Below, piece after piece: positions 18,692 to 36,661 of a stretch of DNA of 64,000 nt. The first letter of the stretch is position 1. Every line of letters starts with the position of its first letter. The stretch is from Flavobacterium sp. (lineage in GTDB: Bacteria > Bacteroidota > Bacteroidia > Flavobacteriales > Flavobacteriaceae): the NCBI RefSeq assembly GCF_025352015.1, contig NZ_JANXUG010000088.1, positions 37,295-101,294 of the forward strand, read 5' to 3'. Below the pieces are notes generated by a model. That model was given only the letters and a program-made list of their open reading frames with translations. It had not been told where the DNA came from and did not search any database. The position numbers and the translations under genes are program-made.

Positions 18692-18715
18692 GATACTGAA
18701 ATAAATTCAGCATAA
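18692..18715 (+). promoter_or_regulatory. Start-codon-proximal palindrome before miaB (two-arm version)
   Basis: GATACTGAAA, then TAAA, then TTCAGCAT, then AA, then the miaB ATG. The arms ATACTGAA and TTCAGCAT pair over 8 bp with one G-U-type position. The same module precedes rpe, the TonB receptor gene and the HMA gene, where a further upstream arm is also present; here I cannot find that first arm inside the predicted leader. Confidence 0.6.
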
Positions 18716-26613: not shown

Positions 26614-26650
26614 TTATGTTAAATTTAGTTCAACATCTTTCGATGTTAAA
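26614..26650 (-). promoter_or_regulatory. Three-arm leader hairpin module before the HMA gene
   Basis: Reading the minus strand from the receptor stop codon: TTTAACATC, then GAAA, then GATGTTGAA, then CTAAA, then TTTAACAT, then AA and the ATG. Arm 1 and arm 2 pair over 9 bp (one G-U) and close on a GNRA tetraloop; arm 2 and arm 3 pair over 8 bp beside the start codon. Arms 1 and 3 share the same 8 nt, so the two hairpins exclude each other. The module fills the whole intergenic space. Confidence 0.65.
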
Positions 26651-28742: not shown

Positions 28743-28782
28743 GATTCTCATAGATGTTGAGAATCTGAACTGAATTCAGATT
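28743..28782. repeat. Two overlapping inverted repeats between the HYC_CC_PP and TonB receptor genes
   Basis: GATTCTCA (28743-28750) pairs with TGAGAATC (28758-28765), and AATCTGAA (28762-28769) pairs with TTCAGATT (28775-28782). The two 8-bp stems share AATC at 28762-28765, so they cannot both form fully. They lie just after the HYC_CC_PP stop codon and could be a weak terminator or a second switch-like element. Confidence 0.55.
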
Positions 28783-28785
28783 AAA

Positions 28786-30831: not shown

Positions 30832-30862
30832 TTTGCCTAATCAAAAAAGAAAATTATCTTTG
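30832..30862 (+). promoter_or_regulatory. Promoter of rpsO
   Basis: TTTG (30832-30835) and TATCTTTG (30855-30862) are separated by 19 nt, matching the Bacteroidota -33/-7 consensus TTG-N17-23-TAnnTTTG. The predicted start lies about 50 nt before the rpsO ATG. Confidence 0.65.
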
Positions 30863-30919
30863 CACTCGAATTGAGAAAGCCTTGATTCATACATAATAAT
30901 CATTTAAAATAATATTGGA

Positions 30920-31189
30920 ATGTATTTAAGTAAAGAAACAAAATCTGAAATCTTCGCTAAACACGGAGGAAAAGCTGAAAACACAGGATCTGCAGAAGGG
31001 CAAATCGCATTGTTCACGCACAGAATTACTCATTTGACAGAGCACTTGAAAAAAAATCGTCACGATTACAATACCGAGCGTTCGTTAGTACTTTTGGTTG
31101 GTAAAAGAAGAAGTCTTCTTGATTACTTGAAGAAAAAAGAGATCAACAGATATCGTGAAATAATCAAAGAATTGAATATTAGAAAATAA
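30920..31189 (+). CDS. rpsO: 30S ribosomal protein S15
   Basis: 89 residues with the S15 core: GSAEGQIALFTHRITHLTEHLKKNRHDYNTERSL and VGKRRSLLDYLKK. S15 binds 16S rRNA at the junction of helices 20-22 and helps form the platform of the small subunit. It precedes pnp, the usual bacterial order, with a terminator between. Its own promoter is clear. Confidence 0.97.
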   Translation: MYLSKETKSEIFAKHGGKAENTGSAEGQIALFTHRITHLTEHLKKNRHDYNTERSLVLLVGKRRSLLDYLKKKEINRYREIIKELNIRK

Positions 31190-36618: not shown

Positions 36619-36639
36619 AATCTGAACTTGTTTCAGATT
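36619..36639. repeat. 8-bp palindrome AATCTGAA/TTCAGATT upstream of the rpe promoter
   Basis: AATCTGAA, then CTTGT, then TTCAGATT. Its loop holds the TTG used as -33 in the rpe promoter call. It has the same form (8-bp arms ending TGAA/TTCA, 5-nt loop) as the palindromes next to start codons in this window. Confidence 0.6.
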
Positions 36640-36661
36640 CTTTAATTATAATTTACTTTTG
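36628..36661 (+). promoter_or_regulatory. Promoter of rpe
   Basis: TTG (36628-36630) and TACTTTTG (36654-36661) are 23 nt apart, at the upper end of the Bacteroidota range. The predicted start near 36668 gives a leader of about 50 nt that consists mostly of the three-arm module. Confidence 0.55.

Follow-up and report, generated by a model that had tools for sequence, protein, structure and literature searches.

In Bacteroidota, translation starts without Shine-Dalgarno pairing, and an open stretch ahead of the AUG is considered necessary. What, then, is a short module of competing hairpin arms doing immediately before the start codon of a gene for an HMA-domain protein in the genome of a Flavobacterium sp. 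(G000)? A sequence-only reading of this locus had described three arms, the last ending 2 nt before the AUG, with a middle arm able to pair with either neighbor, and had suggested that the choice between the two pairings sets HMA translation, perhaps in response to metal. Here we analyze the module in the window, that is, the whole 64,000-nt stretch of DNA, together with its counterparts elsewhere in this genome and in relatives.

RESULTS

Anatomy of the HMA Module and Its Copies in the Window

The three arms at HMA are real and exactly placed (Table 1). The minus strand from 26650 to 26611 reads TTTAACATC-GAAA-GATGTTGAA-CTAAA-TTTAACAT-AA-ATG, as had been described, and the module directly follows the stop of the TonB receptor gene. 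The predicted alternative, in which arm 2 pairs with arm 1 or with arm 3, was borne out as well, with 8 of 8 positions paired in arm2:arm3 and one G.U in each pairing. With a permissive 8/8/8 definition, three-arm geometry occurred nine times on the two strands of the window versus about two times per shuffled 64-kb strand; three of the nine cases (HMA, TonB, and rpe) end 2–3 nt 5' of an ATG and have sequence in common. Because such permissive geometry is common by chance, the case rests on placement and on the arm 1 rule described below.

Table 1. Positions of the hairpin copies and their genes in the window
Feature	Position	Strand	Remark
HMA module arm 1, TTTAACATC	26642..26650	-	9/9 pairs with arm 2
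GAAA loop	26638..26641	-	closes HMA arm1:arm2; also GAAA in G171
HMA module arm 2, GATGTTGAA	26629..26637	-	common to both pairings; identical in G171
CTAAA loop	26624..26628	-	closes HMA arm2:arm3
HMA module arm 3, TTTAACAT	26616..26623	-	immediately 5' of AA-ATG
HMA-domain protein, 113 aa	26272..26613	-	Pfam PF00403; start codon 26613-26611
Second copy, TTCAGTATC-GAAA-GATGCTGAA-ATAAA-TTCAGCAT-AAA	28678..28715	-	before TonB receptor ATG
TonB-dependent receptor, 674 aa	26653..28677	-	Pfam PF00593, PF07715
Third copy, TTCAGTATT-ATAAA-GATGCTGAA-ATAAA-TTCAGCAT-AA	36682..36719	+	three arms; before rpe (Pfam PF00834)
Fourth copy, GATACTGAA-ATAAA-TTCAGCAT-AA	18692..18715	+	arms 2 and 3 only; before miaB (TIGR01574)

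Hairpin copies abut the ATG of four genes in the window, miaB, HMA, the TonB receptor, and rpe. The count of four copies given by the sequence-only reading thus holds for the hairpin and not for the full three-arm module, since miaB has only arms 2 and 3; the miaB hairpin (18692-18713) is also weak, carrying an A.C mismatch. The rpe copy follows a promoter-like box, TACTTTTG, at 36654-36661 (plus strand), and a generic intergenic palindrome, ATCTGAACTTGTTTCAGAT, lies upstream of that box at 36620-36640 (plus strand). A gene for a HYC_CC_PP family protein (NF047658; 28786-29187, minus strand) that has no Pfam match precedes the TonB receptor and HMA genes on the same strand; just past its stop is another palindrome, AATCTGAATTCAGTTCAGATT, at 28764-28785 (minus strand), and G063 has a similar one there.

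A Dispersed Palindrome Family Abuts Start Codons

The HMA module belongs to a family of dispersed palindromes, GATnCTGAA-N5-TTCAGnAT, abutting the ATG at 2–3 nt. Its consensus is GATnCTGAAATAAATTCAGCAT, with the tail AAATG in the start class or GACAAA in the intergenic class. A mismatch search of this genome returned 61 matches to the palindrome versus 3 to the reversed pattern, where a palindrome may match on both strands, so that the 61 matches are not 61 separate sites. Site counts come from a covariance model restricted to the 22-nt hairpin; it is blind to start codons, yet was built largely from start-abutting copies. At E ≤ 1, these E-values being rough, the model returned 28 hits here. 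Of the 16 best, 11 sit 2–3 nt 5' of the ATG of an ORF that is 50 aa or longer. In the relative G063, 17 of 31 hits sit 2–4 nt 5' of such an ATG, and a third genome, G171, had 47 hits and no fewer than 15 start-abutting copies. Random placement relative to start codons, the outcome that the sequence-only reading had named as fatal to its proposal, did not materialize, as most of the best-scoring copies found by this start-blind model lie 2–4 nt before an ATG.

Four of the 11 start-abutting copies in this genome are those of the window, and the others precede unrelated genes. Profile searches (Pfam, and TIGR01574 for MiaB) identified the genes behind the copies in this genome as DUF3098, DUF6495, UDP-GlcNAc epimerase, glycosyltransferase, arylmalonate decarboxylase-like, ThiF, pterin-binding/B12 enzyme, rpe, and MiaB. 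Across genomes the element precedes miaB, rpe, wecB, pyrH, accC, fmt, fabD, DUF3098, DUF6495, and others, names beyond the profile-identified ones being read from N-terminal sequence only, and these genes have no common pathway. A metal response of HMA is accordingly unsupported, and specificity for metal or for HMA was ruled out by the unrelated genes that copies precede.

The usual ending of copies at start codons is nATAAATG or nATAAAATG; intergenic copies often end in GACAAA and behave as ordinary REP-like repeats. Part of the genus Flavobacterium is enriched in the start-docked form; outside the genus this form is rare, with 1–2 copies each in 12 of 299 other genomes of the family, some of the compared genomes being incomplete, versus 8 exact matches here. 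Among 69 start-abutting copies, 31 have the stop of an upstream ORF no more than 60 nt away, and many of these are apparently operon-internal. A TAnnTTTG box occurs within 120 nt of 21 of the 69, compared with 8% of random stretches. Both first and inner genes of operons thus seem to be carriers.

Some related sequences recur in other settings. In many species, CTGAAATAAATTCAG lies shortly behind a TAnnTTTG-like box and ∼20 nt 5' of the ATG, at one orthologous gene with a sucC-like N terminus (L065, L068, L071, L073, L077, L080, L081, L083, L088, L090, and L134). Paired copies of CTGAAATAAATTCAG 240 bases apart occur at several contig ends of G007, resembling rRNA operon flanks (L116, L117, L120, and L121). 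In several genomes, a distinct context ending in AGCTnCTGAAATAAATTCAGnATAAATCC recurs at a distance from start codons (L193, L311, L312, L317, L097, L110, and L114).

Strong Hairpins at Start Codons Usually Carry Arm 1

The 69 start-abutting copies, from this genome and its relatives, formed our first set. A hairpin was called strong when arm2:arm3 reached -6 kcal/mol or lower, and arm 1 was called as an upstream stretch pairing with arm 2, scored against dinucleotide shuffles of the copy's own upstream sequence. In this set, in which the rule was noticed before being tested, arm 1 was present in 29 of 35 strong versus 5 of 34 weak copies (Fisher p = 1e-8), and per gene family in 17 of 23 versus 4 of 29 (p = 1.4e-5); the copies are of common ancestry, so that these p-values are optimistic. 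Weakness mostly consisted of an A.C mismatch (GATACTGAA...TTCAGCAT). The HMA copy of this genome belongs to the weak class (-4.5 kcal/mol), yet has arm 1. As controls, equally strong hairpins off start codons carried arm 1 in 10 of 94 cases, and those of them with a more distant ATG downstream did so in 1 of 18.

The rule was replicated on new copies from 24 genomes, most of them outside the first set, with used sequences excluded and thresholds unchanged: 13 of 22 strong versus 3 of 29 weak copies had arm 1 (p = 5e-4, again optimistic given common ancestry). Pooled, the counts were 42 of 57 versus 8 of 63. Two strong copies without arm 1 in the second set (L392 and L393) resemble chance matches in coding sequence; L401 and L421, also strong and without arm 1, are exceptions to the rule. 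In strong copies, predicted accessibility before the AUG was 0.44 with native upstream sequence versus 0.24 with shuffled sequence; in the weak class it was 0.48. Arm 1 goes specifically with strong start-abutting hairpins, consistent with control of translation initiation. To this extent the role in translation proposed earlier is supported; its specificity for HMA is not, and the closest relative by TonB receptor match (G105, 89%) has no module in the HMA gap or at TonB.

Conservation and Folding of the Two Pairings

The HMA module is kept in a second species, G171, where arm 1 is TTCAGCATC and arm 3 is TTCAACAT; both changed arms are still complementary to arm 2, so that both pairings are preserved. 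Exclusive pairing of this kind is found repeatedly, and compensating changes have conserved it. At DUF6495 in G071, for instance, arms 1, 2, and 3 all differ at the n4 base in a matching way, and wecB and a cyclase-like gene supply further covariation. Across copies, arm2:arm3 pairing exceeds permuted pairing, in counts that lean toward pairing because they were taken on copies selected for uninterrupted pairing. The GNRA tetraloop that the sequence-only reading had noted is present as GAAA in the HMA modules of both species and is not conserved in the TonB leader (GAAA, AACA, or UAAA); only 7 of 19 clean three-arm copies have one, which rules it out as essential.

Presence of the element is patchy among close relatives. 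In most relatives, the HMA gap is a short A-rich spacer with no hairpin. The TonB receptor copy is kept in G063, G171, and G149 and is absent from G026 and G105; the site reads ATCATTT-cta-ATG in G026 and ATCATTT-[TCAG...CAT]-AAA-ATG in G000, and G063 is filled as G000 is. Strength and arm 1 change together between species: in G063, wecB has a weak hairpin without arm 1, and in G164 a strong one with it; a deoxycytidylate deaminase-like gene shows the same swap between species, and the cyclase-like gene shows it across genera, with arm 1 sequences that differ. The copies at miaB (4 species) and fmt (5 species) are always weak and without arm 1, save for a marginal score in one miaB (L282, 0.09).

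The predicted static energies at HMA were -8.7 kcal/mol for the open form (arm1:arm2) and -4.5 for arm2:arm3, favoring the open form by about 4 at 37 °C. In the TonB copy of G063 and in the rpe copy, the two forms were nearly equal in predicted energy.

DISCUSSION

In Flavobacterium johnsoniae, structure near the start codon lowers initiation, messages avoid structure there, and A is favored at -3, -6, -12, and -13 (PMC6847099). A hairpin that reaches to -3 would presumably hinder initiation. The 2-nt form places U, not the favored A, at -3. Building on the anatomy, placement, conservation, and arm 1 rule established by computation, we consider it probable, with moderate confidence, that dispersed REP-like palindromes placed or kept 2–3 nt before start codons act in cis on the mRNA, the balance between the arms setting translation. 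The arm2:arm3 hairpin would cover about -3 to -24, the stretch bound by a ribosome that lacks Shine-Dalgarno pairing. Where this hairpin is strong, an upstream arm 1 could take arm 2 first and leave arm 3 and the AUG free; where an A.C mismatch weakens it, arm 1 would be unnecessary. The rate of translation would then depend on the balance between the two pairings. At HMA, arm1:arm2 is the predicted winner, so that the leader would be open by default, with arm2:arm3 as the predicted closed alternative. We infer both that ribosome binding is affected and how strongly. Counting against this reading are the strong copies that lack arm 1, the U at -3, the patchy presence among close relatives, and a static folding prediction at HMA that favors the open form.

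The same arm 1 rule would be expected, equally well, if insertion is biased toward sites before start codons and only weak or competing-arm insertions survive, the arms protecting the gene and regulating nothing. The intergenic copies of the palindrome, the filled and empty sites that distinguish close relatives, and the lack of a common pathway among carrier genes all agree with this, and near-identical copies before many genes point to copying. That account leaves the fixed 2–3-nt spacing unexplained and sits poorly with the fact that several species conserve the element at miaB, fmt, and DUF6495 and with the small number of AAATG-tailed copies that lack an ORF; we regard it as possible, though somewhat unlikely. 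Mobilization by a RAYT in this genome was ruled out, as the Y1 transposase is absent.

A protein, a metabolite, or temperature might instead shift the arm1:arm2 / arm2:arm3 balance and toggle the genes together, as two mutually exclusive helices and the near-equal energies of the rpe copy and of the TonB copy in G063 would allow. Against such a responsive switch, the carriers share neither a pathway nor a pocket, a weak two-arm copy offers no alternative to switch to, and the two HMA forms are not predicted to invert between 4 and 37 °C. Since static energies favor the open form, a switch at HMA is unproven, and we hold a switch in general to be quite improbable. A constitutive, default-open tuner is favored over a ligand switch by the open HMA form together with the near-equal forms at G063 TonB and at rpe. 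We also doubt that, in a bacterium initiating without Shine-Dalgarno pairing, a portable three-arm module has spread as a repeat to dozens of start codons and is recognized by one trans-acting factor through which the genes are translated in concert. Least credible, and very improbable, is that the palindrome is a transcription factor binding site in DNA: its half-sites are palindromic and the TAnnTTTG box is more frequent nearby than in the background, but the 31 stop-proximal copies, a fixed distance that runs to the ATG and not to a promoter, and an arm 1 rule that follows hairpin strength all speak against it.

If translation is indeed tuned in cis by these arms, the family would show a dispersed repeat turning into a part for translation control. 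A hairpin placed exactly before the AUG, with arm 1 mainly when it is strong, is in effect a natural experiment: different genes carry matched copies of either strength, and some species have the element where their partners do not, which makes the cost of structure at this position directly testable.

Among known systems, REP/BIME elements comprise the GTAG and CGTC superfamilies and are linked to RAYTs, and Flavobacterium genomes are among the REP-rich ones (PMC3733652 and PMC12306157). Like them, the present family is dispersed, many-copy, and mostly extragenic, consisting of short palindromes in many near-identical copies with related intergenic copies. The consensus lacks a terminal unpaired GTAG or CGTC tag, PF01797 (Y1 transposase) was not found in G000, and the CTGAA-N4-6-TTCAG hairpin was not found in ten loci around the Y1 genes of relatives. 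Searches of the open-licence literature did not find the palindrome core as a repeat, or start-docked hairpins in Flavobacterium. Against Rfam at gathering scores, the window gave only an S15-Flavobacteria ribosomal protein leader (30855-30922, plus strand, before an 89-aa ORF at 30920) and two tRNAs, with no match to the module. Structured 5' leaders are known in the same genus from Flavobacterium psychrophilum, including Flavo-1, and the start-docked palindrome is not named in the searched text of that report (PMC9723704).

Unlike REP/BIME elements, the module is docked 2–3 nt before the ATG and has a competing upstream arm. In this it resembles translational hairpins with anti-sequestor arms, such as attenuators and riboswitch expression platforms, in which pairings are exclusive and one covers the initiation region. 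Here, too, computation finds an alternative pairing, kept by covariation, that would hide or free the initiation region. It differs from those systems in being very short and without a ligand pocket, in having many two-armed copies, and in being repeated before unrelated genes.
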